Shown: in pieces, positions 18,898 through 64,000 of the stretch | Layout: each line of letters opens with the position of its first letter | Numbering within the stretch: position 1 is the first letter of the stretch | IMG/VR virus record: IMGVR_UViG_3300036851_000176 | Location: 62,001 to 126,000 of that record | DNA: 64,000 nt | From: a virus | Direction: 5' to 3' (one strand) | The notes under the pieces: model-generated | Database searches by the model: none | What the model was told of the DNA's origin: nothing | What the model saw: the letters and a program-made list of their open reading frames with translations, nothing else | Translations under genes and position numbers: made by a program

Positions 18898-21557
18898 TAC
18901 GACATTGTACCTTCCAATTGGACGCTCCAGGTATCTCCGCCAACACCCATCGCCGAAACACGAATCCGGATCAAGTTTCCAGTTGTCACTGAACCGAGGC
19001 TGGTTGAGACGGCTACCTCGTTCTGTCCGGTCGTCAGCGAGAGAGTCGTGACTGTTGTGGCCGAAAATTCTCCCCCTCCCGCTGATTTCTCGATCACGAA
19101 ACTGTACGTTCCGGAGTCTGGCGAGTCCTCAAGACGCAGGATCGCCTTGTCGAGATTGAATGTCTTGGACACTCCTGCCACTTCTGGGACGCGTAGGATC
19201 GCCGGAACGACCTGCGGGTATCCGACCATGCCGCCCTGCCAATCGAACGAGATTGCGGTAGCTCCTGCCGCCCCGGTGGCTCCGGTGGCTCCGACGCTTC
19301 CCACTCCTCCCGCCCCAGTGGCTCCAGCGGGTCCAGTGGCTCCTGTCGCGCCACCTGCTCCTGTTGAGCCTGTGGCTCCTCCTGCTCCGGTTGCTCCGGT
19401 GGCGCCGTTCGCTCCGGCTGCTCCGGAAGGCCCGGTCGGACCCGTAGATCCAGAATCTCCGGGAAGTCCATCCAGTCCAGGCAGACCCATCTCGGCCATC
19501 AGGTCCCAGTACGTCTCCCAATCCACCCCGACTCCAGGCTCACTCGCGGCCGATGCTGTATGAGCCAGGATGCAAATGTAACTGGATCCTCTATTGAACA
19601 CGGCATCATTGACCGCATATACTGTTCCGGTTGCGCCCTTGATTCCGACGATCGCCGTTGCAGATGATTCTCCGGAGGCCGTAGAGCCAGTCGTCGCGGT
19701 CGGCGTTTCGGAGATCGATCCTGCGGTTGTCTGGACTTTGTCAGATGCCTCAAACGCTGTAGCGAACTGCGCACTGTTCTGGTCGAAACGCTCTGTGTAT
19801 CCAGAAGGCGGCGTGACTGCCGATCCGGATCCTCGGAACGCACAGAAGACGACGATCATCTCGCCGTCTTCGGTTGTCACAATCGAGTTTGTGGGGAAAC
19901 TGGATGTTGCTCCATTGTGCTTCTTGCCAGCGTCGTAGACATCGACATCGCTGGCGTCCTGATATGCAAGGATGTGAATGTTCCACGAGGTTGCCTGCGT
20001 GTTATCTGACCACGTATAGTCACCGGATTCTCCGGAGGCGACCTTCTTCCAGATCTGCTGTCTAGAATCTCCGCTCGCCGTCGCCCGGAAACGCACGTCG
20101 GAGAGTTTCGTCCAGCCAGTCGGTCCGGTAATGTCGTCAGTTCCGTTGGCATCGTAAACGACGACATCGGCGAGCATCACATCGCCATTTGAAAGCCCCG
20201 CTGGCGGCGATACTGCTTGTGTTGTGCTAGACGCGCTTGCGGCAGACGACACGTTTCGAAATGTCGGACTCGTTTCTGATCCGCCAACTGCTGTCCAGCC
20301 ATCTCTCCATACGATTCCACTTCCGGCTGCGCCGGATGCTCCGGTTGCGCCAGGAGGTCCGGTCACTCCAATCGAACCGGTTGCTCCCGTAGCCCCGGTT
20401 GCTCCCGTTACTCCAAGCCCCGTGGCTCCCGTGTTTCCGCGAGGTCCAGTGGCTCCAGTGGCTCCAGTGGCTCCACTCGCGCCGGTGGCTGGAACGATTC
20501 CGGTCCCGTTCTGATATGTCGCTAGAAGAACATCACCCGATTGCGGCTTTTCGCTCGCAATGAAAACGATCGTATCTCCGGTTAGGTTGTACTCGTTTCC
20601 GTCTTCGAGCAGAAGTCCATTCAGGTACAACTCCAAGGAATTCGTTGGATCGGGAGACATGTCGAGCACGAATGTGTCGTTGACTCCATCGATTGTCCCA
20701 GCAGGCGTCTCGTTCCAAATGATGTCTGACCGTGACAACGGACCAGTTGCGCCAGTGGCTCCTCCCGGTGATCCGGTAGCTCCAGCAGGGCCAGTTGATC
20801 CTGTTGCCCCAGAACCGCCAACCGCTCCTGTCGCCCCATCTTCGCCTTGCGCTCCGGCTGGCCCTGATGGCCCCATGAGTCCATCGAGACCAATGTCTCC
20901 CGGAGGTCCTGCCGGTCCTGTCGGTCCCGTGGCTCCTGTTGCGCCGCCAGGGCTTCCTGGGTCACCTTGAGGTCCGGTGGCTCCTGTGGCTCCTCCGGGG
21001 CTACCAGAGGCTCCTGCGGGGCCTGTGGCCCCTGTGGCGCCCGATCCTGTTGCTCCCGTTGCTCCCGTTGCTCCGGCAGACCCCGTGGCGCCAGTCGATC
21101 CCTTGGCACCAGGAGTTCCGGCCGATCCTGTCGCTCCCACGTTCGAAGTCGAGAGATACCACACCGAACCATCCGGATCGATCTGGACGTGTGCCACGAA
21201 TCCATCGACGGCAGGGATGACGAACTGTTCGCTCTTCTCTGGTCGGAACCCAACTGGAAGGACGAACACGACCGTATTCGGATCTCCATTCTGGAAGGCT
21301 CCTCGAATTCGAATCTCGCCATCGGCAGATCGATAGAACGACACTGCCACGTAATCTCCGCCAACATTTCCCCACCCGTTCTTGAAAACGGCGGTAAATC
21401 CCCCATTTTCTGATCCAGGATCTCCATCAGGCAAATCTGCCGTGCTGTCAACAACAGGGATCCAGCCCGTGTCCGGGAGTTTGCGAGGTCGGCGAAGTTC
21501 CTTGATCGTGTCCGTCAGGTCACGATTGAAGTGCCGAAGATCGGGACTCTTGCTCAT
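18897..21557 (-). CDS. collagen-like tail fibre protein
   Basis: 886 aa. Several long tracts of G-x-y triplets, mainly [10 protein letters not shown] types, alternate with beta-rich globular segments; a carbohydrate-binding-like block follows [20 protein letters not shown] and an [19 protein letters not shown] module sits between tracts. Triplet tracts form trimeric triple-helix shafts in phage fibres. The N-terminus ([20 protein letters not shown]) probably docks to the tail tip. The long open plus-strand frames here are shadows of this low-complexity sequence. Confidence 0.88.
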
Positions 21558-22819
21558 GACTCTGGAACCTTACTGTGGAAGTCACTGGCGATTCGGAGAG
21601 ATGCCGTCTCAACACAGTTGTCAGAGAGCGACAAGATGACCTCGTAAATGCGCTGCTTCACATTCGAGACCGAGAGCGCGCCCTTGCTGGCGTTAAGCAT
21701 GACAAGATCACCGAGTCCGTAGTGATACCCGTAATAGGGAGGCTTCAGCGCCGCCTGCTCAATTGCGTACACGACTGGTTTGTCTCCGAGGCGCTGCAAT
21801 GCTTCCTTGGCCTGCTTGTCGAGGATTCCAGTCTCGTCCACCATGTCCTCTGAATCCGAGTCCACGATGAACATGTAGTTACCGACAGAGTTGACTGAGT
21901 AGTCGCCAGTGTCCTGGTTGAATCGAACCTTGCGATGCGTTTCGGGGTCGTTGTTTCCGACCGCCCAGACGAAGTTCGAGAAGTTACCGTCCTTTCCGAC
22001 AACGACCTCTTCCGTTTCTACGAAATCGTCCAGGTTCGACGCACCTGTGCAGAAATCGAAACTGACGCTACTGCTCACATCACTGCCCCTCTGTGGCGAA
22101 GTCTTGAAGTACATAAGCGCGTAGTCTCCGCGATTGATGTACTCAGGAATCAAATCAGGAGCCGGGTTGCCGTCCTCGTAGGTGAATATCATCTCCTGAA
22201 TCTCGTCCCAAACCCAATTTCCTCGACGCACGTTTCTGCCATTAGCGATCTGGATCGTTTTCTCCCAATAGGGAGGCCCAGTCGTTGGCTTGATGATGCC
22301 GGTTAGGGCTACATCTGTCTCTGATCCCAACTGATGATTTACGAGATCGATCAGGCGCCAGCAGAGAGCGGACACATCCCACTTCAGTCCGTCCATGTTT
22401 CCGCCGTCCCAGCCGTGACTGAGGTTCTGTCCCGCGTAGTCGATGACCAGTTTCCAGTTGTTGCGGTGGAATCGTCCCTGAAGACGCCAGAACGGTGACT
22501 GAGCAAGCACGGACAGAGTGTTGGCCTGTCCAGCCTTCTCGCATCTGGTGATGATCCCCGCAAAGCACGGAGTTCCTGGCGGGTCGGTATAGAAAACCGA
22601 GTTGATTGGATCGTTGATCGTGCGCCACACCTTCACAGTGCGTCGAAGCGCCTTCAACTCGTTCGCGTTCTCGTTGTCCAACCATACCGTGAACGAGCAC
22701 GAGTCGATTCCGTTGAGAGGAAGCGAGAGCGTCTGGTCTGTCGCGCCCTCGATCGTGCAGACCTCCGTTCCGTCCAGTTCGAAGATCTTGATGAGCCAGG
22801 TGAGGGTGATCTGCGCCAC
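21554..22819 (-). CDS. minor tail protein, ReqiPepy6 Gp37-like
   Basis: 421 aa, GTG start. [20 protein letters not shown] with [20 protein letters not shown] and [11 protein letters not shown] resembles the siphovirus ReqiPepy6 Gp37-like family, hub-like proteins at the tail tip. It directly follows the Dit-like gene, matching the Dit then hub order in siphoviruses. Confidence 0.65.
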
Positions 22820-37118: not shown

Positions 37119-38243
37119 GTGGCTGAAACAAGACAGTGCGGTAAGTGTCGAGAAGACAAGCCCGTGACCGACTTCGACGACACGCGAGTGTCCAACGGAG
37201 TCAGTCGCAAGTGTGAGGCTTGCTACGAAGCAGAGGGCAGAGGCCGACGACCGAACGTCGCCGAGCCAAGCGAGATCGAGAAGTCAACTCTCGAAGCCCT
37301 CAAGAAGCTGGGAGATACGGCGTCAATCGAAGAGATCGCCGACTACGCCGACATCGCGCCGAAGCGAGTGCGCGAGGCTCTGGAATCCCTTGGGCATCAA
37401 GGATTCCGTCTGGAGCACGAGGGAGATCACAAGGTTACCCTCCAGAAAGTCCCCCGACCGAGCACCATGGAGCACAAGGTGCTGTTCAAGGGCGAGACCT
37501 ATCGGTTCGCCATCATCTCCGACGTACACCTCAACTCGAAGCACTGCCGACTCGATGAACTCCACATCGCGTATGACATGGTGGCCTCCGAAGGAATCTC
37601 CGACGTGTACAACCCGGGAGACATCGTGGCCGGTCGCGGCATCTTCAAGGGCCAGGACCACGAGATCATCAACCACACGTTCGAGGCACAGAAATCGTTT
37701 GCGATCGAGAACTACCCGGTGCGTGATGGGGTCACGACCTACATCATCTCCGGGAACCACGACTGCGAAGGCGACTTCGGCAAGGCCGGAGCCGATGCCT
37801 GCCTCGGAGTGGCAAACGAGCGCGAGGACCTGATCTGGGGCGGAATGTATGCCGCCGACTATGTTCTCCCGAACGGAGCCGTGATGACGATGCGGCACCC
37901 GATGGGCGGATCGTCCTACGCGAAGTCGTACAAACCTCAGAAGTTCGCTGAATCGTTCGAGGGCGGCACGAAGCCCGCGATCGTCCTCTTCGGCCACTGG
38001 CACAACTTCGAGGTCGGTTTCCACCGCAACGTGTACATGATCAACTGCGGCACCTTCGAGGGATACGGCGGGACCTTGGGTCTCCGCGTTCCTCTCGGAG
38101 CGCCCGCTGTCGGCTTCACGATCGCCGAAGCAACTCTCGGCGATGACGGATCACTCGTCCGCTTCAAGCACGAGTGGTTCCCGTTCTACGCGGGCCGACG
38201 CATGGGCAAAGGAAAGAGCCGTTCCGGCCGCAAGGCTGCGTAG
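37119..38243 (+). CDS. metallophosphoesterase with zinc ribbon and winged helix
   Basis: 374 aa, GTG start after GGAGG. N-terminal CGKCREDKPVTDFDD zinc ribbon, a winged helix at about 50-110 (EEIADYADIAPKRVREALES), then a calcineurin-like core: SDVHLNS, NPGDIVAG, SGNHDCEG and LFGHWHN. Domain order suggests a DNA- or RNA-bound phosphatase/nuclease. Mn/Fe-dependent. Confidence 0.85.
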   Translation: MAETRQCGKCREDKPVTDFDDTRVSNGVSRKCEACYEAEGRGRRPNVAEPSEIEKSTLEALKKLGDTASIEEIADYADIAPKRVREALESLGHQGFRLEHEGDHKVTLQKVPRPSTMEHKVLFKGETYRFAIISDVHLNSKHCRLDELHIAYDMVASEGISDVYNPGDIVAGRGIFKGQDHEIINHTFEAQKSFAIENYPVRDGVTTYIISGNHDCEGDFGKAGADACLGVANEREDLIWGGMYAADYVLPNGAVMTMRHPMGGSSYAKSYKPQKFAESFEGGTKPAIVLFGHWHNFEVGFHRNVYMINCGTFEGYGGTLGLRVPLGAPAVGFTIAEATLGDDGSLVRFKHEWFPFYAGRRMGKGKSRSGRKAA

Positions 38244-38641
38244 TGGGCGGTCTATCCATCCCCGACCGGATTCTCAGTGAGGATGCCACCGAAAGGTGGT
38301 GTCCTTGCTGTGAGACCTGGAAGTTGATGGACCGCCAGCACTTCTATGTCGCCTCGAACACGAAAGCAGGATTTCGTCGGACGTGCAAGGCGTGCCAGAA
38401 ATTGAAAGATGCACGCAATCGACATCTCGAATACAACGGGTATGTCTACATGAATAGAGTCCGGCCGTGGCTGCGCGCTCTCGTCGAGAAACTCGGCTTC
38501 ACCGGTGCAGCCGAAGCCCTCGGCGTCTGGAAAGGCCAATTGGCCGGATGGATGAGCAAGCGCCGCAGACGTATCCAGCGGCGCAACGCGGCCCGCATTC
38601 TCCGCGTGTGCGGAGAGCATGGGATTCGCATCGCTGTTTAG
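38243..38641 (+). CDS. zinc-finger/HTH protein
   Basis: 132 aa, GTG 38243 overlapping the upstream TAG. Two CxxC pairs (CPCC and CKAC) and a C-terminal RALVEKLGFTGAAEALGVWK HTH followed by basic residues. Likely DNA-binding. Confidence 0.65.
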   Translation: MGGLSIPDRILSEDATERWCPCCETWKLMDRQHFYVASNTKAGFRRTCKACQKLKDARNRHLEYNGYVYMNRVRPWLRALVEKLGFTGAAEALGVWKGQLAGWMSKRRRRIQRRNAARILRVCGEHGIRIAV

Positions 38642-38642
38642 G

Positions 38643-38713
38643 CTGGCACGGAAGGAATCGAACCTTCATCACTCGGTTAACAGCCGAGGGTTTTACCGTT
38701 AAACTACACGCCA
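38643..38713 (-). tRNA. tRNA-Asn (GTT)
   Basis: Acceptor TGGCGTG/CGTGCCA, anticodon loop CTGTTAA, T-loop TTCGATT. Cloverleaf complete; 3' CCA not encoded. Confidence 0.93.
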
Positions 38714-38806
38714 TCGATTTACTGCTGTCGCAGTAGTTATTTCGTCAAACCGGCCAATTCCCTGGTCCAGGAAATTAGCCTTCGTGCAACGTTTCCGTTC
38801 AAATGG

Positions 38807-38879
38807 GGGGTCGCCAGGGACTTGCACCCTGCTCAACCAGAGTCACAGTCTGGGATCTCGCTGCCTAGATTTACGACCC
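38807..38879 (-). tRNA. tRNA-His (GTG)
   Basis: Acceptor GGGTCGT/GCGACCC, anticodon stem CCAGA/TCTGG with loop CTGTGAC. T-loop is TGCAAGT rather than TTCAAAT-like. Confidence 0.9.
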
Positions 38880-38881
38880 AG

Positions 38882-38950
38882 CTGGAGAGGCAGGGGTCGA
38901 ACCTGCGCTACGAGGTTCAGAGCCTCGCTGTCTACCATTAACACCCTCCA
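38882..38950 (-). tRNA. tRNA-Gln (CTG)
   Basis: Acceptor TGGAGGG/CTCTCCA, stem CGAGG/CCTCG and loop CTCTGAA. Complete. Confidence 0.9.
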
Positions 38951-38955
38951 ATGTA

Positions 38956-39041
38956 GGGAGACCACTCGCTTCCCACCCCGGCTTGGAGACCCCGGTTTGA
39001 TGGGGGTTTATCCTCACGGGCCTTAGCCTTGTCCGTCTCCC
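38956..39041 (-). ncRNA. degenerate type II tRNA-like RNA, possible Leu (CAA)
   Basis: 86 nt bounded by perfect GGGAGAC/GTCTCCC arms and occupying a normal tRNA slot. The central stem-loop has a loop ATCAAAC (U33, anticodon CAA, A37). No canonical T-arm is present, so it is probably decayed or a specialised RNA. Confidence 0.35.
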
Positions 39042-39042
39042 A

Positions 39043-39115
39043 GTGGACCGAGAAGGAGTTGAACCTTCACCTCCCGCGCTTCAAGCGGGCGCTCTACCTC
39101 TGAGCTACCAGTCCA
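39043..39115 (-). tRNA. tRNA-Phe (GAA)
   Basis: Acceptor TGGACTG/CGGTCCA, stem CCCGC/GCGGG, loop TTGAAGC. Complete. Confidence 0.92.
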
Positions 39116-39126
39116 TGTCTTGCTAG

Positions 39127-39195
39127 CGGGCCAGGAAGGAATCGAACCCTCTCCTAACGGGTTGGAGCCGTTTTGGACACCATGTCCTCTCGCCC
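39127..39195 (-). tRNA. tRNA-Trp (CCA)
   Basis: Loop CTCCAAC on stem AACGG/CCGTT; T-arm GAGGG-TTCGATT-CCTTC. Acceptor has one G-G mismatch and the D-loop is only about 5 nt, so it may be weakly active. Confidence 0.75.
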
Positions 39196-39263
39196 AAGTT
39201 GGACGATCGTGCGCACCGGGGGAATGCTCTTATCACCGGTGCCCAGTGCGCGCGTCGTCCGAT

Positions 39264-39334
39264 CAGGCTGAGAGGATTCGAACCTCTACCGCTCGCTCCC
39301 AAAGCGACCGTGCTGCCGTTGAACACTACAGCCT
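39264..39334 (-). tRNA. tRNA-Pro (TGG)
   Basis: Acceptor AGGCTG/CAGCCT, loop TTTGGGA. Complete. Confidence 0.9.
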
Positions 39335-39408
39335 GTTGTGACTGTCTTCGCGGCTCGAACTTCGGTGCTTATGTGATGGTGCTTGAAGAGAGACGCGCAG
39401 ACAGCGAA
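39335..39408 (-). other. hairpin with tRNA-like arms
   Basis: CTGTCTTCGCG (39342-39352) and CGCGCAGACAG (39394-39404) pair, with a GTTCGAG near the T-loop position, but no anticodon arm. Possibly a tRNA remnant. Confidence 0.3.
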
Positions 39409-39471
39409 TTAGACCCCTGGAAACCAGGGGGTATTCGGCTGATGCTGTTGCGATGTCATCTCGATCTTCAT
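39409..39471 (-). CDS. 20-aa ORF at head of the tRNA-Pro to Asn unit
   Basis: MKIEMTSQQHQPNTPWFPGV from ATG 39471, 10 nt after a TAACGT -10 box. Its end overlaps a 7-bp hairpin (39414-39430). May be a leader or spurious. Confidence 0.35.
   Translation of the reverse strand: MKIEMTSQQHQPNTPWFPGV
39414..39430 (-). terminator. CCCCTGG hairpin
   Basis: CCCCTGG-TTT-CCAGGGG on the minus strand, perfect 7 bp. No U-run follows. Confidence 0.4.
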
Positions 39472-39481
39472 TGCGCCACCA

Positions 39482-39510
39482 ACGTTACATGAATGGTCGT
39501 GGTCTGTCAA
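39482..39510 (-). promoter_or_regulatory. promoter of the tRNA-Pro to Asn unit
   Basis: TTGACA (39505-39510), 17-nt spacer, TAACGT (39482-39487), reading into tRNA-Pro, Trp, Phe, Gln, His and Asn. Confidence 0.75.
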
Positions 39511-39667
39511 GCCGAGGCCGCTTGCTCAACCGCCAGTTTCCCAAGCGGCTCAGCGAAGCGGCCCAACACAAGGCCGATATTCCCAGTCGCCGCTGACACG
39601 GCTCCTGACTGCCTCGGATCCGGTGTCAGCCGGAGAGCCGAGCGGGCGCTTGCGCCTCGGACACGCT
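39511..39667. other. non-coding, nothing recognised
   Basis: GC-rich sequence between the 66-aa gene and the tRNA promoter, with no convincing ORF; short inverted repeats only. Confidence 0.4.
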
Positions 39668-39868
39668 TCAAACGTCTGGCATCGAGAGGAAGTCCTGGTA
39701 ACTCTCCTGCATGTCGGCCAAGCGTTCCTCGAAAAACTCCCGAATCTCTTCTTCGCTGGCGCGAGGGATCAGAGCAGCAAGGGCATGGTTCATCTCGTCC
39801 GCTGCGTACTCTCGTGTTCTGTCGGGGATCTTCATGATGTGGGGTGGCAGACTATTTGAACGGCTCAT
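39668..39868 (-). CDS. hypothetical protein, 66 aa
   Basis: MSRSNSLPPHIMKIPDRTRE with GGAGG 8 nt upstream; helical acidic C-terminus (EEEIREFFEERLADMQESYQ). Sits between tmRNA and the tRNA-Pro unit. Unknown. Confidence 0.65.
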   Translation of the reverse strand: MSRSNSLPPHIMKIPDRTREYAADEMNHALAALIPRASEEEIREFFEERLADMQESYQDFLSMPDV

Positions 39869-39963
39869 GTGATGCCTCCGCTTAGCGGCCTGCCAGCGAC
39901 CTTACGCACTGGTTCTGTTCCCACGCCAGCGTGCGCCCCGCGCGGCCCCGAAGGGCATTTCAG

Positions 39964-40283
39964 TGGAGCCGCCGGGTATCGAACCCGGGTCCGTCTCGTC
40001 CGTACAAACAGATCTTCTAGCAGCTTCGGGGTGGTATACGCCACCTCCACCAGGGCAGACCTTTGGTCTCCGCGTCACCGTTGAATGGGGTCGGTGTCCC
40101 GTCCTACTGGTACATCATCCCGGACTTCTGTTCCTACCGGCCGGGGCGGCGCTCGTGGCCGTTAAGCCGCGAGAGGAAGCACGTATGCTTCGTCGTTTCG
40201 TTTGCCCTCCGGGCCGGTGCGGTAGGCCGCAACCCGCTGCGATCTCCTTGCCGTTTTCGAGGCGTCGAATCCAATTCGGCCCC
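39964..40283 (-). ncRNA. ssrA: tmRNA (transfer-messenger RNA)
   Basis: 320 nt. The 5' end GGGGCCGAATTGGATTCGAC and 3' end GGGTTCGATACCCGGCGGCTCC with acceptor GGGGCCG/CGGCTCC give the tRNA-like domain (A discriminator; CCA not encoded). The tag frame (40162-40206) reads GKRNDEAYVLPLAA then stop. It rescues stalled ribosomes and tags the nascent chain for proteolysis. Driven by its own promoter; plus-strand ORFs across it are shadows. Confidence 0.95.
40162..40206 (-). other. tmRNA tag reading frame
   Basis: Codons GGC AAA CGA AAC GAC GAA, then GCA TAC GTG CTT CCT CTC GCG GCT TAA: 14 residues GKRNDEAYVLPLAA. The ND-E-x-Y and LAA ends are typical of SsrA tags. Resume codon is probably GGC (Gly). 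Confidence 0.85.
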
Positions 40284-40290
40284 ACACGGG

Positions 40291-40318
40291 ACTATACACA
40301 TTCCGGGCGTTTTGTCAA
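40291..40318 (-). promoter_or_regulatory. tmRNA promoter
   Basis: TTGACA (40313-40318), 16-nt spacer, TATAGT (40291-40296) preceded by TGTG, an extended -10. About 7 nt to the mature 5' end. Confidence 0.85.
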
Positions 40319-40572
40319 CCCACCTCGCGCCATATCCCTCGTTCGAGGTACCCGTGCCAGCCATCCTTGTTATCGGCCAACTTCTCCAGGATCGATGGAG
40401 AGACGGTCACGGTGCCGTCCTGGTGCTCGGTCACGTCCCATTCTTCGAGACGTGCGGGGCCAGATCCGTTCGGGAGGCAAACCCACAGGAATCTCGATGG
40501 GCCTCGGAAACAGTAGTCGCCCGCTTCGAGTTCCCACGGCAGCGTGTTATCTGGGCGTCGTCGTCCTTTCAT
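40315..40572 (-). CDS. DUF6527-like protein
   Basis: About 85 aa from ATG 40572 (MKGRRRPDNTLPWELEAGDY). GPSRFLWVCLPNG, TVTVSPSIL and GWHGYLERGIWREV match the family pattern. Stop overlaps the tmRNA promoter. A GACGACCCGC hairpin lies just upstream of the start. Confidence 0.6.
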   Translation of the reverse strand: MKGRRRPDNTLPWELEAGDYCFRGPSRFLWVCLPNGSGPARLEEWDVTEHQDGTVTVSPSILEKLADNKDGWHGYLERGIWREVG

Positions 40573-40633
40573 GTGTTTACCGCAGACGACCCGCGCAAGG
40601 CGGGTCGTCGCGAGACTCAGGATCACCTCCCCG

Positions 40634-40693
40634 TTAGAAGGGCCACTCTTCCTGTACGGCCACCGCTACGGGGAGGCCGTTGAGTCTTGCCAC
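40634..40693 (-). CDS. 19-aa leader peptide candidate
   Basis: GTG 40693 after AAGGAGGTGG; VARLNGLPVAVAVQEEWPF. An inverted repeat CCTCCCCGT/ACGGGGAGG (40668-40676 and 40626-40634) could mask downstream sequence. Could be a translational attenuator of the 40572 gene; unproved. Confidence 0.35.
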   Translation of the reverse strand: MARLNGLPVAVAVQEEWPF

Positions 40694-40739
40694 GTAGACC
40701 ACCTCCTTCCTCCAACAAGGTGAGTCTACCGCAAAGTTT

Positions 40740-40768
40740 TTGGGCACAAAACATTGCAGTGGTACGCT
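40740..40768 (+). promoter_or_regulatory. leaderless promoter, plus strand
   Basis: TTGGGC (40740-40745), 17-nt spacer, TACGCT (40763-40768), 6 nt before ATG 40775. Confidence 0.45.
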
Positions 40769-40774
40769 AAAGGG

Positions 40775-40912
40775 ATGCCAATCGACCCCGAAACTGGACG
40801 CTACTGGACGCCGCGCTATCGATCGAAGTTTGAGGCGGTTCGAACCGTTGCCTCGTGCGTGTCTGCGGTTGGAACGATCTTCGTTCTGCTCAGAGTTTTC
40901 GGCAAGATCTAA
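40775..40912 (+). CDS. small membrane protein, 45 aa
   Basis: MPIDPETGRYWTPRYRSKFE then a hydrophobic helix (VASCVSAVGTIFVLLRVFG). AAAGGG precedes the ATG. Only plus-strand gene inside the tRNA array; ends next to tRNA-Ser. Confidence 0.55.
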   Translation: MPIDPETGRYWTPRYRSKFEAVRTVASCVSAVGTIFVLLRVFGKI

Positions 40913-40913
40913 G

Positions 40914-40998
40914 CGGCGGGTGAGGGGATCGAACCCCCACAGGTGTTACCCCATCACCGGGTTCAAGCCGGATAAGCACGCCAGCCATGCGACCCGCC
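40914..40998 (-). tRNA. tRNA-Ser (TGA)
   Basis: 85 nt with long variable arm. Acceptor GGCGGGT/ACCCGCC; loop CTTGAAC. Confidence 0.92.
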
Positions 40999-41070
40999 GA
41001 GTGGACGATGTAACGCATTTTGCGTCACTCTGTCCATTCAAACCATTCCGCAATCGGAACAATTATGAAA

Positions 41071-41151
41071 TGCGCACCCCGGGATTCGAACCCGGACGCC
41101 TCGCGGCACCAGCCTCTCAGACTGGCGTGTCTACCGTTCCACCAGGCGCGC
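41071..41151 (-). tRNA. tRNA-Leu (GAG)
   Basis: 81 nt type II. Acceptor GCGCGCC/GGTGCGC; stem CCAGT/GCTGG, loop CTGAGAG. Confidence 0.92.
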
Positions 41152-41155
41152 AAGT

Positions 41156-41183
41156 GTCAAGTTTTATGGCAAGAAAACTTGAC
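41156..41183 (-). repeat. 10-bp inverted repeat between tRNAs
   Basis: GTCAAGTTTT-ATGGCAAG-AAAACTTGAC, perfect 10-bp arms. AT-rich; possible RNase processing or regulatory hairpin between tRNA-Ser(GCT) and tRNA-Leu(GAG). Confidence 0.6.
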
Positions 41184-41187
41184 AAAG

Positions 41188-41271
41188 CGGAAGGCCGAGG
41201 TCACGATCCCCACGCCTTTCGGCGCGATCCGGCTAGCAACCGGTCCCCGGGCCATCCCAGGTTGACCTTCC
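41188..41271 (-). tRNA. tRNA-Ser (GCT)
   Basis: 84 nt type II. Acceptor GGAAGGT/GCCTTCC; loop TTGCTAG. T-loop ATCGTGA is unusual. Confidence 0.85.
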
Positions 41272-41275
41272 GTAG

Positions 41276-41349
41276 TCCCCACGCCAGGATTCGAACCTGG
41301 ATCCCTCCGGTTTGAGCGGAGTGCGTCTGCCGGATTGCGCCACGCGGGG
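41276..41349 (-). tRNA. tRNA with CAA anticodon (Leu), short variable loop
   Basis: Acceptor CCCCGCG/CGTGGGG; stem CTCCG/CGGAG with loop CTCAAAC. Only 74 nt with a 5-nt variable loop, unlike bacterial tRNA-Leu (type II), and it has a C1-G72 pair. Confidence 0.8.
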
Positions 41350-41359
41350 CTATGTCGAG

Positions 41360-41446
41360 TACGGGAGGCGGGAGTCGAACCCGCACGTCCTTTCGGACAC
41401 CGATTTCTGAGACCGGCGCGTCTACCGAGATTCCAGCCACTCCCGT
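41360..41446 (-). tRNA. tRNA-Leu (CAG)
   Basis: 87 nt type II with long variable arm. Acceptor ACGGGAG/CTCCCGT; loop CTCAGAA. Confidence 0.92.
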
Positions 41447-41453
41447 ATGTCGA

Positions 41454-41528
41454 GAGCCGATGGCAGGAATCGAACCTGCGTGGACGGGGTTGCAATCCGT
41501 CGCCTGGGACCACTCGGCCACATCGGCT
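41454..41528 (-). tRNA. tRNA-Cys (GCA)
   Basis: Acceptor AGCCGAT/ATCGGCT; loop TTGCAAC. Confidence 0.92.
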
Positions 41529-41530
41529 TG

Positions 41531-41603
41531 GTGGGCGCCCTAGGATTTGCACCTAGTCCTGCGGGGTTACGGCCCGGAATGCTCTAACTACACCAGACGC
41601 CCA
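41531..41603 (-). tRNA. tRNA-Tyr (GTA)
   Basis: Acceptor TGGGCGT/GCGCCCA; loop CCGTAAC. Position 33 is C instead of the near-universal U. Short variable loop. Confidence 0.75.
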
Positions 41604-41610
41604 AGTAGGT

Positions 41611-41630
41611 CAGTCCGCCGAGGCGGACTG
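41611..41630 (-). terminator. hairpin upstream of tRNA-Tyr
   Basis: CAGTCCGCC-GA-GGCGGACTG perfect 9-bp stem. Could be a processing hairpin in the tRNA precursor. Confidence 0.45.
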
Positions 41631-41676
41631 GCTAAGACTTAGGCAATACAACTGGTGCGCGAACATAACGTGCCGG

Positions 41677-41705
41677 AGTATAGACGAAGATTGCTGATTT
41701 CGCAA
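41677..41705 (-). promoter_or_regulatory. promoter of the tRNA-Tyr to Ser unit
   Basis: TTGCGA (41700-41705), 17-nt spacer, TATACT (41677-41682), reading into tRNA-Tyr, Cys, Leu, Leu, Ser, Leu and Ser. Confidence 0.75.
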
Positions 41706-41796
41706 GTATCTTCTCTACTTGAGCAATCAGAGGTACTCGACGTGAAGAGTTCCGCCGAAGGGGAGGGTGCCATCGAAGAGGAACATTCCAAGTTCG

Positions 41797-41928
41797 TCAC
41801 CTTGGTAGGCCAGAATCGAGGGTATTTTCCTCGCGATCTTCTTGCTCCAGCGCCCACGCCGAGATGATCTTTCCAAGAGGAGGATCCGGAAAGAGGGGAC
41901 GACCCAGTTCGTCTCGATCGTCGGGCAC
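41797..41928 (-). CDS. possible 43-aa protein
   Basis: GTG 41928 immediately after the TAA of the upstream gene; VPDDRDELGRPLFPDPPLGK. The region 41604-41928 otherwise holds only a promoter and a hairpin; ORFs on both strands compete here, so confidence is low. Confidence 0.35.
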   Translation of the reverse strand: MPDDRDELGRPLFPDPPLGKIISAWALEQEDREENTLDSGLPR

Positions 41929-42189
41929 TTACTTCGCCTGGAACATCGGCTTCAGCCGAGGTCGCGTCTCTGGCTTAGGGTCTCCCTCGTCCTCTGGGTA
42001 ATCCACCGGCTGGCCCGAGATGCTGATGTCTCCTGTCCCGTTTTCTACAATCCTGTTCACGTTGTATCGGACGCGAAAGTCGTTCGAGTAGACATCGTTG
42101 TCGATTTCTAGGGTCTCTCCTTCTCCCGGAAGCAGCACATACCCAACCGCGAAGACAAAGCAGTTATCCGTGTGGTTCGTGAGGATCAT
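41929..42189 (-). CDS. hypothetical protein, 86 aa
   Basis: MILTNHTDNCFVFAVGYVLL; beta-rich. Follows the 42193 gene by 3 nt, and is in its operon. Unknown; could be a small structural protein. Confidence 0.65.
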   Translation of the reverse strand: MILTNHTDNCFVFAVGYVLLPGEGETLEIDNDVYSNDFRVRYNVNRIVENGTGDISISGQPVDYPEDEGDPKPETRPRLKPMFQAK

Positions 42190-42192
42190 GAC

Positions 42193-42579
42193 TCAGGCCG
42201 GGTAAGGAACGATGTTGTACAGGACCACCAGAATCCCGCTGGCTACCGATCCTCCCGTCACATGAGCACTGATCTTTCCATCCTCGCTGGCAATGGATTT
42301 GATCCCGGATCCGAGTTCCGCCAAAACCGCGTAAGACGTGGCCGGAATGGAAGAGCCGGATGTGATCGAGTTGTCGGCTCCGATCCCTACACCCAACGAT
42401 CCAGATCCAGAGAACGCTTTCAGGACGACTACGGTGCTGACGATTGCCCAGCCCTTCGGAATCAGATCTCCGAATTCGTAGGTTCCGGCAGAAAGACCGG
42501 GGCGAGCATCGAAGGTGGCGACCTTTGAGGTTTGTCCACCCTTCATCAGGGCGTAAATCTCTGAAAGGGGAGCAGTCAT
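42193..42579 (-). CDS. hypothetical beta-rich protein, 128 aa
   Basis: MTAPLSEIYALMKGGQTSKV, then GSLGVGIGADNSITSGSSIP: a glycine/serine-rich beta fold like virion decoration or fibre-tip proteins, but no family recognised. ATG 42579 lies 6 nt after TACACT, suggesting a leaderless mRNA. Confidence 0.65.
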   Translation of the reverse strand: MTAPLSEIYALMKGGQTSKVATFDARPGLSAGTYEFGDLIPKGWAIVSTVVVLKAFSGSGSLGVGIGADNSITSGSSIPATSYAVLAELGSGIKSIASEDGKISAHVTGGSVASGILVVLYNIVPYPA

Positions 42580-42585
42580 GGTGCG

Positions 42586-42591
42586 AGTGTA
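42586..42591 (-). promoter_or_regulatory. extended -10 promoter (leaderless)
   Basis: TGGTACACT with TACACT at 42586-42591, 6 nt before ATG 42579. No clear -35. Confidence 0.45.
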
Positions 42592-42606
42592 CCATGCAAA
42601 ATCAGG

Positions 42607-42679
42607 AGCCGGGGAGAGGAGTCGAACCCCCACCGCAACCGTACAAAGGGTGCATGCTAGCCATTAACACCACCCCGGC
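42607..42679 (-). tRNA. tRNA-Thr (TGT)
   Basis: Acceptor GCCGGGG/CCCCGGC; loop TTTGTAC; one mismatch in the anticodon stem. Confidence 0.85.
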
Positions 42680-42733
42680 TCGATCGTTCACTGGTGCAAG
42701 AAACTACGTTATGACTTAGTTTTCCGCACCAGT

Positions 42734-42808
42734 AGAGGCCCTAGGAGGATTCGAACCCCCGACTCACGCGGTAGAAACGCGCAGCTCTGTCCCCTGAGCT
42801 ACAGGGCC
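42734..42808 (-). tRNA. tRNA-Arg (TCT)
   Basis: Acceptor AGGCCCT/AGGGCCT; loop TTTCTAC. Confidence 0.92.
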
Positions 42809-42893
42809 TTGGTAGTCATTACACGTACGATGTATCTGTCAGGCGCTAGTCTCCCTTGACCACTCCTGCCTCTCGTCCGCTGGTACCCGCTCG

Positions 42894-42930
42894 CGAGCGC
42901 ACGCCGGAATCGAACCGGCCGTCTCCTGAA
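42894..42930 (-). pseudogene. tRNA 3' fragment (T-arm and acceptor strand only)
   Basis: CCGG-TTCGATT-CCGG T-arm followed by CGTGCGC, but no 5' half or anticodon arm: tRNA-Lys ends 2 nt away. A remnant of a deleted tRNA. Confidence 0.6.
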
Positions 42931-42931
42931 G

Positions 42932-43003
42932 TGGATCCCCGAGGACTCGAACCCCGATCTCATGGCTTAAAAGGCCAGACTCTGCCTGTTGAGTTAGAGA
43001 TCC
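42932..43003 (-). tRNA. tRNA-Lys (TTT)
   Basis: Acceptor GGATCTC/GGGATCC; loop CTTTTAA. Confidence 0.92.
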
Positions 43004-43044
43004 ATGTGCCGCAATTGGAAGGGGATGCGGCCAACCGTCTTCGA

Positions 43045-43119
43045 GTGGACCGGCCGAGATTCGAACTCGGATCGCACGCGGTGCAAGCGCGGCAGGTTCC
43101 CATTACGCCCACCAGCCCA
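43045..43119 (-). tRNA. tRNA-Ala (TGC)
   Basis: Acceptor TGGGCTG/CGGTCCA (with G-U pairs); loop CTTGCAC. Confidence 0.85.
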
Positions 43120-43129
43120 GGTGTTGCTA

Positions 43130-43204
43130 TCGGCCGAGGAGGATTCGAACCTCCGACTGACACGGGTTCGAAGCCCGCCGCTCTGTCCACTGAGCTACCA
43201 GCCG
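43130..43204 (-). tRNA. tRNA-Arg (TCG)
   Basis: Acceptor CGGCTGG/TCGGCCG; loop CTTCGAA. Confidence 0.9.
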
Positions 43205-43212
43205 TTATGTAG

Positions 43213-43285
43213 TGCGGCGAGCAAGAGTCGAACTTGCGTCCTCCGGGTTCGCAACCCGGCGCTCTGTCCTCTGAGCTATCGTCGC
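43213..43285 (-). tRNA. tRNA-Arg (GCG)
   Basis: Acceptor GCGACGA/TCGCCGC with one A-C mismatch; loop TTGCGAA. A G34 Arg anticodon is unusual because bacteria mostly use ACG (inosine). Confidence 0.88.
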
Positions 43286-43334
43286 GCGTGTCATGCAATA
43301 CACGTTTTTCATGTACAACGTGACAGTCTTGCAG

Positions 43335-43407
43335 TGGCGCCCCGAGGACTTGCACCCCGTTCGCGCGGCTTAAGAGGCCGGACTCTGGCTCGTTGAGTTA
43401 GAGCGCC
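43335..43407 (-). tRNA. tRNA-Lys (CTT)
   Basis: Acceptor GGCGCTC/GGGCGCC; loop CTCTTAA. T-loop TGCAAGT. Confidence 0.9.
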
Positions 43408-43414
43408 ATATGTA

Positions 43415-43487
43415 GTAGGCATCCAGAGACTTGAACTCCGATCTCCTGGGTGTAGGCCAGGTGTCCTCCCATTGGACGAGACGCCTA
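43415..43487 (-). tRNA. tRNA-Val (TAC)
   Basis: Acceptor TAGGCGT/ATGCCTA; stem CCTGG/CCAGG with loop CCTACAC: C33 instead of U33. Confidence 0.85.
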
Positions 43488-43498
43488 TGTTGTTTCGA

Positions 43499-43573
43499 GT
43501 GGACCGGGGAGCGATCGAATCTCCCGCCTCTCCTTTATCAGAGGAGCGCTCTGCCGTCTGAGCTACCAGTCCA
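43499..43573 (-). tRNA. tRNA-Ile (GAT)
   Basis: Acceptor TGGACTG/CGGTCCA; stem CTCCT/AGGAG with loop CTGATAA. Confidence 0.92.
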
Positions 43574-43593
43574 TGTTCCGTGCTGGACTGCGG

Positions 43594-43689
43594 CTATGCG
43601 ACGGTAATGCGCGTCGCGGCCAGCACGGTGCGGACGACGGTTCTCGTCGTTCGCTTGAGTTTCCTCTGTGCTGTCCGCGTGAAGTTCAT
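43594..43689 (-). CDS. 31-aa basic peptide in the tRNA array
   Basis: MNFTRTAQRKLKRTTRTVVR then TVLAATRITVA, very basic. ATG 43689 is 7 nt after TAAGGT with a TTGACT -35 at 16 nt: a complete leaderless promoter. Its transcript would run into tRNA-Ile and later tRNAs. Peptide may be real or just the lead-in. Confidence 0.5.
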   Translation of the reverse strand: MNFTRTAQRKLKRTTRTVVRTVLAATRITVA

Positions 43690-43696
43690 GATCGTG

Positions 43697-43724
43697 ACCT
43701 TAGCAGGTTTCGAGAAAAAGTCAA
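43697..43724 (-). promoter_or_regulatory. promoter, leaderless class
   Basis: TTGACT (43719-43724), 16-nt spacer, TAAGGT (43697-43702), 7 nt before ATG 43689. Also serves tRNA-Ile and downstream. Confidence 0.75.
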
Positions 43725-43725
43725 G

Positions 43726-43798
43726 AGCCACCGATCGGATTTGAACCGATCCTACAACGTTGGCAACGTTGCGTGCTACCGCTAGACACTACGGTGGC
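43726..43798 (-). tRNA. tRNA-Gly (GCC)
   Basis: Acceptor GCCACCG/CGGTGGC; stem CAACG/CGTTG with loop TTGCCAA. Confidence 0.92.
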
Positions 43799-43802
43799 AA
43801 AT

Positions 43803-43897
43803 GGAGAGCCTAGGTCCTCAGTTATTCCCCGCCGGGGAGGACTCCACGGCATCACTCCTAAGAGTGGCGGGCCAGATGTCTCCGATGTCAACTCTCC
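43803..43897 (-). ncRNA. tRNA-like folded RNA, uncertain
   Basis: GGAGAG/CTCTCC ends enclose CACTC-TTAG-GAGTG and a nested GTCCTC/GAGGAC hairpin over a CCCCGGCGGGG. No T-arm. Occupies the gap between two tRNA-Gly genes. Confidence 0.3.
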
Positions 43898-43927
43898 TGG
43901 GAGACCCACGGTCTTTGGTTTTTCCAG

Positions 43928-44001
43928 AGCGCCTGCTCGGATTCGAACCGAGACTGCCAGCTTGGAAGGCTGGCGTGCTGACCGTTAAACACTACGGGCG
44001 C
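43928..44001 (-). tRNA. tRNA-Gly (TCC)
   Basis: Acceptor GCGCCCG/CAGGCGC (one C-A mismatch); stem CCAGC/GCTGG with loop CTTCCAA. Confidence 0.9.
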
Positions 44002-44029
44002 GTGCTTGCCATGGTACCTGAAACGAGAG

Positions 44030-44101
44030 CGGGTCTACGGAGGATCGAACTCCGATCTGTGCCTCGACAGGGCACCGTCCTAGCCATTGAACGACAGACC
44101 C
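44030..44101 (-). tRNA. tRNA-Asp (GTC)
   Basis: Acceptor GGGTCTG/TAGACCC; stem GTGCC/GGCAC with loop CTGTCGA. Confidence 0.92.
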
Positions 44102-44194
44102 AAGGATGAGGAGTGAGCGGTGCAAATCGACCACCCTCATCAGCAACTCCTGTCCGGATGCATCCCCGGCTCAGGTCAGCAGCGTCCTACTGAG

Positions 44195-44268
44195 TGTCCC
44201 GACCGGGATTCGAACCCGGGTCGCCGCCGTGAGAGGGCGGTATCCTAGACCAACTAGACGATCAGGAC
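44195..44268 (-). tRNA. tRNA-Glu (CTC)
   Basis: Acceptor GTCCTGA/TCGGGAC; stem CCGCC/GGCGG with loop CTCTCAC. Confidence 0.92.
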
Positions 44269-44320
44269 GTATCGGGGTTCTTCATCTCCGGGCCTGAACC
44301 CGAAGCGAGTGCTACCCCAG

Positions 44321-44394
44321 TGCCACCGGCGGGATTCGAACCCGCATCGCCGAGCTTGAAAGGCTCGCATCCTAAGCCATTAGACGACGTTGGC
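44321..44394 (-). tRNA. tRNA-Glu (TTC)
   Basis: Acceptor GCCAACG/CGGTGGC with one A-G mismatch; stem CGAGC/GCTCG with loop CTTTCAA. Confidence 0.9.
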
Positions 44395-44397
44395 AAG

Positions 44398-44644
44398 TCC
44401 CCTTGCGGGGAGCGCCCAGTCCGCTTGCCCTCTACCGGGGGCCGACCGGGCAATGATTGAGGCACCTGCGGGCCGTGCCTCCCTGCGCCCTCCGGAGAAT
44501 CCATGAGGCTGCGAGCGGTGGAGAGTCGATCGCGCCTGGGATGTCAATTCGGGAGGGTCATGACTCCCTCCCGACCTGGCCGTCGCCAGGATTTCAGTGT
44601 TGCTCCGTCGAGCACCCCTCGGCCCGGACAACCGCCGGGACGGA
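44398..44644 (-). ncRNA. hairpin-dense non-coding RNA candidate
   Basis: 289-nt gap between tRNA-Glu and tRNA-Met without ORF. It holds a series of perfect stems: TCCCC/GGGGA (44398-44411), TTGCCC/GGGCAA (44425-44453), GAGGCAC/GTGCCTC (44459-44481), TCGGGAGGG/CCCTCCCGA (44549-44574), CCTGGC/GCCAGG (44575-44590) and TCCGTC/GACGGA enclosing CCCGG/CCGGG (44604-44644). Function unknown. Confidence 0.5.
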
Positions 44645-44683
44645 AACGCGAGAGGCCACTGTCTCCGGGTTTCCCCTTCGAGT

Positions 44684-44754
44684 AGCGGGTACGGGAGTCG
44701 AACCCGCTGTCTTCGGCTTATGAGGCCGCTGTGGAAGCCGTTTCACTCCCCCGC
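44684..44754 (-). tRNA. tRNA with CAT anticodon (Met)
   Basis: Acceptor GCGGGGG/TACCCGC (one mismatch); stem GCGGC/GCCGA with loop CTCATAA. Lacks initiator features, so elongator Met; lysidine-modified Ile cannot be excluded. First tRNA after the promoter. Confidence 0.85.
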
Positions 44755-44761
44755 TCGTCGG

Positions 44762-44789
44762 AGTATACATGCCGGAGATGGCATGTCAA
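44762..44789 (-). promoter_or_regulatory. promoter of the tRNA array head with operator
   Basis: TTGACA (44784-44789), 16-nt spacer, TATACT (44762-44767). A perfect inverted repeat ACATGCC-N6-GGCATGT (44767-44786) fills the spacer, a repressor-type site. Confidence 0.8.
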
Positions 44790-54823: not shown

Positions 54824-55035
54824 GTTTCGGTCAGAACACGCTTCTTACGGATGCCTGCTTTGACCTCGATAGGAAGTTCGTTGCGGCCGTTGAACTCCTG
54901 GGCCAGAGCCTTGCGACGGGCCTTGACGGGCTTCCACTCGTCAAGGTTCTCGACGTTGCGCGGGAGCGAGTCGTACTCACGCTCGAGCTCGTCGAGCGTC
55001 ATCTCGCTAACCGGCCGGGTGCTGATCTCTGTCAT
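54820..55035 (-). CDS. hypothetical protein, 71 aa
   Basis: MTEISTRPVSEMTLDELERE; helical with a KARRKALAQEFNGRN basic part. Coupled to RNA ligase by 1-nt overlap. Confidence 0.6.
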   Translation of the reverse strand: MTEISTRPVSEMTLDELEREYDSLPRNVENLDEWKPVKARRKALAQEFNGRNELPIEVKAGIRKKRVLTET

Positions 55036-55811
55036 TACAGATCCTCTCGCTTGAGTTTGAAGAATACGCGGCTGCGGTTGTGATCGAATAGATAGGGATC
55101 GGTGCGCGCGATCACTCCTTCTGCGTACGGAAGATCGTTTGCGTTCTCGAATTCGACACCCGAATCCTCAGCCGCTACAGCGGAGCGCAATTCGGGTACT
55201 CGTTCGACGATCTCTTCGAGGGGAGCCGTCGATGACAGAACGGGAACGGTCTTGATTCCGATGACTTCGGCTGCGTCGGCGACATCATCCCACCGACGCC
55301 ACATCGGCGAACCCCAGTGTCCGTGCTCGGCCTGGCCGCGATAGGTCGTCGCGTCGAATGCGCGAAACTGCTTGGTCGGTGAGTAGTAGCCACCCTTCTG
55401 GATGCCAGCGCCGTATCCCTCTCCGTAGATAACCAGCATCGTCGGATCGCGCGTGATCTTGTCGGTGAGTTCCTCGTCGGACTCACCGCCGTGGATGATC
55501 ACCTTGAGAGCGCGAAATACGCGATCGGTCAGTTCATATGCCTCTTCGACACCGAACGCCTCCTGCAAGAATCCCTTAGGGACCGTCGCCTTGTCGCTCC
55601 GCCCGCGAACATCCACGATTGGACGCCAACGATCCTCTTCCTCGTCGTAGGCCCAGTCGAGGATGATCCGCATGTTCGTCCCATCGATCTTCTCGGTGAC
55701 AAGCCAGTCCTTGATCTGGCGCACGTAGGGGTTGCGGAAGTCGCCGATGTTCAACTTGTGCGTCTCTTCGTTGCGAGTGAAGAGGTTCTCGGTCTTGCCG
55801 TACTCCGTCAC
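55035..55811 (-). CDS. RNA ligase, T4 Rnl2-like
   Basis: 258 aa. Nucleotidyltransferase motif I EKIDGTN with K41 as the adenylated lysine, then motif IIIa-like LVIYGEGYGAG, motif IV EGVIART and motif V VFFKLKRED. Seals 3'-OH/5'-P nicks in RNA, with ATP. Short, lacking the C-terminal domain of T4 Rnl2. GTG start. Confidence 0.85.
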   Translation of the reverse strand: MTEYGKTENLFTRNEETHKLNIGDFRNPYVRQIKDWLVTEKIDGTNMRIILDWAYDEEEDRWRPIVDVRGRSDKATVPKGFLQEAFGVEEAYELTDRVFRALKVIIHGGESDEELTDKITRDPTMLVIYGEGYGAGIQKGGYYSPTKQFRAFDATTYRGQAEHGHWGSPMWRRWDDVADAAEVIGIKTVPVLSSTAPLEEIVERVPELRSAVAAEDSGVEFENANDLPYAEGVIARTDPYLFDHNRSRVFFKLKREDL

Positions 55812-63613: not shown

Positions 63614-63777
63614 TCGGGCACCTGAATGTACACGCGGTGCCAGTTGGTGTGATAACCGCCGTCTAGGACAGCCTCGACCGACACGATCGTCTCGCCCTCG
63701 TTCAGTTCCACGTCGTAGTCCTTCGTGGTGTCGTCGGCCCCGTTCAGGGCCTCGAAGTATGCGATGCGGATCTTCAT
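63610..63777 (-). CDS. hypothetical protein, 55 aa
   Basis: MKIRIAYFEALNGADDTTKD; beta-rich acidic. ATG 63777 overlaps the RtcB-like stop (TGATG). Unknown. Confidence 0.55.
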   Translation of the reverse strand: MKIRIAYFEALNGADDTTKDYDVELNEGETIVSVEAVLDGGYHTNWHRVYIQVPE

Positions 63778-64000
63778 CAGTCTTTGTACGGATCGAAGGT
63801 GTCGGGCGACGCCATCACGACGCCGAGAGGTCGCAGCACTTCGAGCACTTCGATGTTCGAGTGCGCCTCGATCACGTCAGCCAGCGGCTTGTACACGCCC
63901 GGGCTTTCGTCCGCCCCCGCTCCGAGCACGCAGATTCCGCGACCCTTGAGGTCGTCGCGCGCGAAATCCCAGTCGATCGCGGCCGTGCTCTTGTCGCGCG
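63777..64000 (-). CDS. rtcB: RtcB-type RNA ligase, C-terminal end
   Basis: The visible C-terminus reads TAAIDWDFARDDLKGRGICV, then ESPGVYKPLADVIEAHSNIE and VLRPLGVVMA, the conserved end of RtcB. The family joins 2',3'-cyclic phosphate or 3'-P ends to 5'-OH ends, as left by anticodon nucleases. Catalytic His/Cys residues lie outside the window. Confidence 0.75.
   Translation of the reverse strand, partial: RDKSTAAIDWDFARDDLKGRGICVLGAGADESPGVYKPLADVIEAHSNIEVLEVLRPLGVVMASPDTFDPYKD

Follow-up and report, generated by a model that had tools for sequence, protein, structure and literature searches.

The window analysed here is a stretch of 64,000 nucleotides, bases 62001-126000 of the virus record IMGVR_UViG_3300036851_000176, which has a total of 146,625 bases. 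The two ends of the record repeat each other over 174 bases, with one mismatch, and the record is therefore probably a complete, circularly assembled genome; its source is an uncultivated large tailed phage of about 147 kb. The minus strand of the window carries a dense array of transfer RNA (tRNA) genes, interrupted by a transfer-messenger RNA (tmRNA) gene. The array consists of 27 firm tRNAs and one doubtful one, and every one of the 20 amino acids is covered. No tRNAs were found in the rest of the genome.

ARAGORN called 24 tRNAs and one tmRNA at 38641-44394 on the minus strand, and Rfam at gathering score gave 24 tRNA matches and the tmRNA. Met(CAT) at 44683-44755 (42.9 bits) and Leu(CAG) at 41360-41446 (41.0 bits) were missed by ARAGORN and found with Rfam only. 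A covariance model, R1, was trained on 21 tRNAs of the array with short variable arms, and it recovered tRNAs that had not been used in its training, namely Lys(CTT) with 50.6, Leu(GAG) with 42.8, His with 41.5, Trp with 40.3, Leu(CAG) with 32.6 and Ser(TGA) with 21.8 bits. Lys(CTT) was listed by neither ARAGORN nor Rfam. In the 27 firm genes 6-7 of 7 acceptor pairs, 4-5 of 5 anticodon-stem pairs and 4-5 of 5 T-stem pairs were formed. The genes of the array are, in their own direction (supported by ARAGORN, Rfam and a cloverleaf unless stated otherwise):

44682..44755, minus: tRNA-Met (CAT), first in the array, A1-T72 paired, elongator-like; Rfam and cloverleaf
44320..44394, minus: tRNA-Glu (TTC)
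44194..44268, minus: tRNA-Glu (CTC)
44029..44101, minus: tRNA-Asp (GTC)
43927..44001, minus: tRNA-Gly (TCC)
43725..43798, minus: tRNA-Gly (GCC)
43499..43572, minus: tRNA-Ile (GAT)
43415..43486, minus: tRNA-Val (TAC), C33 instead of U33
43334..43407, minus: tRNA-Lys (CTT); R1 and cloverleaf
43212..43285, minus: tRNA-Arg (GCG)
43129..43204, minus: tRNA-Arg (TCG)
43045..43118, minus: tRNA-Ala (TGC)
42931..43003, minus: tRNA-Lys (TTT)
42735..42808, minus: tRNA-Arg (TCT)
42605..42679, minus: tRNA-Thr (TGT)
41529..41602, minus: tRNA-Tyr (GTA), C33 and G55 variants, CCA encoded
41454..41527, minus: tRNA-Cys (GCA)
41359..41446, minus: tRNA-Leu (CAG); Rfam and R1
41275..41349, minus: tRNA-Leu (CAA)
41187..41271, minus: probable tRNA-Ser (GCT), T loop aberrant, doubtful; cloverleaf, low R1 score
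41070..41152, minus: tRNA-Leu (GAG)
40913..40998, minus: tRNA-Ser (TGA); ARAGORN, R1 and cloverleaf
39961..40283, minus: tmRNA (SsrA), one-piece; ARAGORN, Rfam and alignment
39262..39335, minus: tRNA-Pro (TGG)
39126..39195, minus: tRNA-Trp (CCA), D arm short; ARAGORN, Rfam and R1
39043..39114, minus: tRNA-Phe (GAA)
38881..38950, minus: tRNA-Gln (CTG)
38804..38879, minus: tRNA-His (GTG), G55 variant, CCA encoded; ARAGORN, R1 and cloverleaf
38642..38713, minus: tRNA-Asn (GTT), last in the array

There are thus three tRNAs each for Leu and Arg, one or two for Ser, two each for Lys, Gly and Glu, and one for each of the remaining 14 amino acids. The uncertain case is Ser(GCT), which we regard as a probable but doubtful 28th tRNA. 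It scored just 5.0 bits with R1, a model trained on tRNAs with short variable arms, and its T loop, ATCGTGA, is aberrant. When folded, it forms 7 of 7 acceptor, 4 of 5 anticodon-stem and 5 of 5 T-stem pairs; its variable arm is long, and CT follows its discriminator base as in most of its neighbours. Serine is covered by Ser(TGA) regardless of Ser(GCT). Support is thinnest for Trp, with 29.7 bits in Rfam against a cut-off of 29, though ARAGORN accepts it. A second thin point is the assignment of the CAT anticodon to Met rather than to Ile2, which was made because ATA accounts for just 6 of 30,658 codons. Further tRNA candidates at 38955-39042, 42885-42935, 43803-43918 and 44395-44680 were folded and rejected, as none combined a proper T arm with a proper anticodon arm. 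A preliminary description of the window, made by reading the sequence, had listed 28 tRNAs covering all amino acids and had named rejection of several by tRNA scanners, with loss of amino acids, as the outcome that would count against it. No such loss occurred: all 28 sit at 38641-44755 on the minus strand, and the complete coverage was borne out by ARAGORN, Rfam, R1 and the cloverleaves.

The tmRNA, overlooked in the preliminary description, matches RF00023 over its full length (model positions 1-374, 54.6 bits against a cut-off of 47) with both tRNA-like ends. Its acceptor stem, GGGGCCG/CGGCTCC, has a G-T at 3-70, corresponding to the G3-U70 type of pair for alanylation. One reading frame runs into GKRNDEAYVLPLAA followed by a TAA stop, which falls in the loop of helix 5 and matches the family consensus, so that the pair and an LAA-type tag ending in this loop are both present as in RF00023. 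The tag likely ends in NDEAYVLPLAA (codons 40162-40197), as judged from this frame. The tag proposed by ARAGORN, ETTKHTC..., was rejected because its frame continues through and past the helix 5 loop, whereas the other frame ends with LAA inside it. The NDE-Y part resembles the E. coli tag. The NDEAYVLPLAA pattern had no match in the viral contigs or in the 84,980 species genomes searched.

The array also contains promoter-like sites and structured spacers:

44762..44789, minus: sigma-70-like promoter TTGACA-16-TATACT, predicted start at or beside the first base of tRNA-Met; 11/12 match
40291..40318, minus: sigma-70-like promoter TTGACA-16-TATAGT, predicted start at the tmRNA 5' end; 11/12 match
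42680..42734, minus: spacer hairpin in the Arg(TCT)/Thr interval; z -4.4
41153..41186, minus: spacer hairpin with a perfect 11-bp stem; z -4.9
40999..41069, minus: spacer hairpin; z -5.7
39196..39261, minus: spacer hairpin; z -5.3
38714..38805, minus: spacer hairpin; z -4.5

The two promoters are the only sites in the 146.6-kb genome that match a sigma-70 promoter in at least 11 of 12 positions; the number expected by chance, given the dinucleotide content, is 0.18. The -10 box ends 7 bases upstream of position 1 of tRNA-Met and about 8 bases upstream of the tmRNA body, respectively, and the two promoters would give leaderless starts at the mature 5' ends of these RNAs. A weaker, 9/12 promoter-like site (41705-41677) lies ahead of tRNA-Tyr. 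Hairpins with z below -4 were present in 5 of about 15 spacers (27 to 287 bases), compared to 6 of 250 non-coding and none of 250 coding control stretches. They differ from one another in sequence, and they may be processing sites, possibly for RNase III.

Several tRNA genes depart from the usual pattern. CT directly follows the discriminator base in 21 of the 28 tRNA genes and in the tmRNA, and the CCA end is encoded in His and Tyr only. His, Tyr and Lys(CTT) share the T loop TGCAA (G55), and the combination of G55 and an encoded CCA suggests a different origin for His and Tyr. CCA is encoded in nearly all tRNAs of alphaproteobacterial phage arrays and mostly not in the actinobacteriophage arrays that we read; by this analogy its scarcity here is a weak hint of a host that adds CCA. 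In tRNA-Val and tRNA-Tyr, C33 replaces U33. The same change was found in tRNA-Val of four of six tRNA-rich comparison phages. Convergence on C33 in phage tRNA-Val looked striking with five phages, but two others have U33, and we therefore merely note it. For resistance to anticodon nucleases, the C33 of these two tRNAs is no more than suggestive.

Such odd features, including the T loop of Ser(GCT), the C33 and G55 variants and possible remnants in the spacers, would also be expected if the tRNAs had been captured neutrally, accumulating with little present function as in a genomic island. The 27 intact cloverleaves with hardly any duplicate anticodons, promoters placed to the base and a tmRNA stop in the expected loop make this explanation highly improbable in our view.

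Decoding capacity was assessed with codon counts from 129 confident genes (30,658 codons) among the 165 genes given by a simple gene caller. If U34 reads whole four-codon boxes, 57 of the 61 codons can be decoded, corresponding to 99.1 % of the codons used. The codons without a phage tRNA are ATA (6 occurrences), TTA (5), CTA (109) and CAA (147). Second tRNAs with C34 fit G-ending codons that predominate in these genes: AAG makes up 84 % of the Lys codons and GAG 67 % of the Glu codons, and the others are CTG and TTG. This is what would be seen if the array served to aid codons used more by the phage than by its host, tRNA cleavage not being involved: the anticodons track the codon use of the phage, extra C34 tRNAs serve the commonest G-ending codons, and the uncovered ATA and TTA are nearly absent. 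However, a tRNA for every amino acid, including the single-codon Met and Trp, exceeds the needs of rare codons, and CAA is not avoided although it has no tRNA: it makes up 15 % of Gln codons, comparable to AAA with 16 % of Lys. In addition, an analysis of C1 mycobacteriophages saw no codon-frequency signal (PMC10264068). We take codon compensation seriously as a possibility but consider it unlikely.

Initiator tRNAs are marked by an unpaired 1-72 position and three consecutive G-C pairs. No initiator-type tRNA was seen among the tRNAs of the array, the CAT tRNA having an A1-T72 pair and lacking the three consecutive G-C pairs. No aminoacyl-tRNA synthetase or CCA-adding enzyme turned up among the proteins scanned, which were part of the proteins of the genome. 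The near independence from host tRNAs proposed in the preliminary description is thus retained for elongation and has to be given up for initiation and for four codons: with ATA, TTA, CTA and CAA unserved and no initiator tRNA seen, the array is not a self-sufficient decoding set. Judged from its gene content, the phage is nearly self-sufficient for amino acids, and neither for codons nor for initiation.

Two RNA ligase genes lie on the same strand:

55035..55811, minus: Rnl2-type RNA ligase, motif EKIDGTN; PF09414, E 2.8e-16
63777..64000, minus: 3' end of the RtcB RNA ligase gene, the whole gene being genome positions 125777-127171; PF01139, E 3.3e-56

RtcB has the catalytic Cys and His motifs of its family (VGYDIACG, GSGNH, SRGLGH and GSAPHGAGR), and its scores are under the curated cut-offs of the NCBIfam RtcB equivalogs. 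The second ligase is above the cut-off of PF09414 and has the KxDG motif within EKIDGTN; it is named Rnl2-type, and not Rnl2 proper, because its score is under the equivalog cut-off of TIGR02307. RtcB joins a 3'-phosphate or cyclic phosphate to a 5'-OH, whereas Rnl2-type ligases join a 3'-OH to a 5'-phosphate. With the two chemistries, both kinds of tRNA break could therefore be mended, and the presence of both ligases in the genome would fit a defence against tRNA cleavage. They thus lend indirect support to the host tRNA cleavage that the preliminary description had given as a possible setting for the array.

Elsewhere in the window, a type I methionyl aminopeptidase gene (7748-8563) lies near a gene for an HslV/proteasome-beta-like protease (9419-10072), the product of which starts with MTVVVG and has a possible Thr nucleophile. 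Just beyond the 3' end of the array, 37119-38243 on the plus strand codes for a metallophosphoesterase-like protein with an N-terminus weakly resembling HNH/endonuclease VII. The phage also encodes a protein with an IMP dehydrogenase domain (G000 20714-21649).

The cause of tRNA loss might also be viral, i.e. the phage itself would degrade the tRNA or DNA of its host and the array would replace what is lost. Complete amino-acid coverage fits such a takeover of the tRNA pool, and host-type promoters would permit early expression. The scanned proteins, many of which are of unknown function, included no recognisable phage enzyme for tRNA degradation, and we hold this to be very unlikely.

The explanation that we favour, and consider probable on the basis of the gene content, is that the array of tRNAs and tmRNA sustains elongation when host tRNAs are lost, while the ligases repair cut tRNAs and the tmRNA rescues ribosomes. 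Early in infection, the host RNA polymerase would transcribe the array into long precursors, to be cut into tRNAs by nucleases of the host, perhaps with RNase III acting at the spacer hairpins. The phage tRNAs would then maintain elongation when host tRNAs are cleaved by tRNA-targeting defences or lost in host collapse. Cut tRNAs with 3'-phosphate or cyclic phosphate and 5'-OH ends would be repaired by RtcB, those with 3'-OH and 5'-phosphate ends by the Rnl2-type ligase, and the tmRNA would release ribosomes stalled at starved codons or on cut mRNAs. The host would still supply the initiator tRNA, the synthetases, the modification and CCA-adding enzymes, and the tRNAs for CAA and CTA. Phage tRNAs changed at anticodon-nuclease sites provide a published precedent (PMC10264068), and another report describes retrons defeated by phage tRNAs (PMC11555353). 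The pairing of a tRNA array with an RNA ligase is also seen in Streptomyces phage Karimac and in Mycobacterium phage Nanosmite, which speaks for this explanation.

Several observations weigh against replacement, repair and rescue as the role of these genes. With strict wobble the array reads 47 codons and 83.7 % of the codons used. At least one uncovered codon occurs in 94 of the 129 confident genes, and complete loss of host tRNAs would therefore still stop most genes. The ligase genes are outside the array, about 10 kb and 20 kb from it, and the substrates of both ligase types can include RNAs other than tRNAs. A more far-reaching version, in which a full tRNA set on leaderless host-type promoters, two ligases for both chemistries of tRNA breaks and a tmRNA whose PLAA tag is unusual form one integrated kit, elongation is nearly independent of host tRNAs and tagged products might be cleared by the phage HslV-like protease, seems to us quite unlikely.

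The purpose of the many tRNAs of some phages has been debated for decades. A full amino-acid set together with a tmRNA and two RNA ligases provides a further, independent case for the view that phages have to survive the loss of host tRNAs, a view limited by the remaining dependence on the host for some codons and for all initiation.

The lineage of this phage has almost no sequenced relatives. Patterns for the capsid protein found none, and those for the terminase found one, the 9.2-kb contig L038 (61 % identity, without tRNAs), which is the sole near relative found; the terminase patterns had no match in species genomes. DNA polymerase patterns matched 28 contigs with 27-34 % identity, none of which had more than two tRNAs in the vicinity of the polymerase gene. 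As a type of locus, the array is better known. With 27-28 tRNAs in 6.1 kb, about 4.5 per kb, it falls within the definition of a tRNA gene cluster by Morgado and Vicente (2019), i.e. at least 15 tRNA genes and at least 2 per kb (PMC6409571). In the same survey 8 of 228 viral tRNA clusters had all 20 isotypes (PMC6409571), in agreement with the rarity that had been proposed for this array. The present array thus joins a small number of complete sets described before.

Dense arrays of about 17-29 tRNAs are found in C1 mycobacteriophages of the ScoobyDoobyDoo type and in the Reyvirus Nanosmite, and in Mycobacterium phage Nanosmite RtcB adjoins the array. Unlike the present phage, ScoobyDoobyDoo has an annotated initiator tRNA, and the region of it that we read has no tRNA for Leu, Asn or Ser; in Nanosmite several amino acids are not covered. 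For the C1 phage Momo, 34 tRNAs and a tmRNA are reported (PMC4472892). The virus Rctr197k (KX853510) has about 34 tRNAs, most of them in one dense array, but no Leu or Tyr tRNA and no tmRNA are annotated in the part read of this partial genome. Streptomyces phage Karimac and its relatives (Stanwilliamsviridae) share with the present phage many tRNAs, a tmRNA and an RNA ligase, which in Faust and others is homologous to the present one (32-33 % identity), and their tRNA genes have C but scarcely any CCA after the discriminator. They differ in having tRNAs dispersed among protein genes and, in Karimac, a polynucleotide kinase, and close DNA similarity to the present phage is absent. Bacteriophage DSS3_MAL1 (MN602268, 149.6 kb) differs in its permuted tmRNA (ARAGORN tmRNA*) compared to the one-piece form found here, in the CCA encoded in nearly all of its tRNAs compared to almost none, and in carrying a peptidyl-tRNA hydrolase and a nucleotidyltransferase. 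Like the present phage, it has all 20 amino acids (about 32 annotated tRNAs) and a tmRNA in one region.

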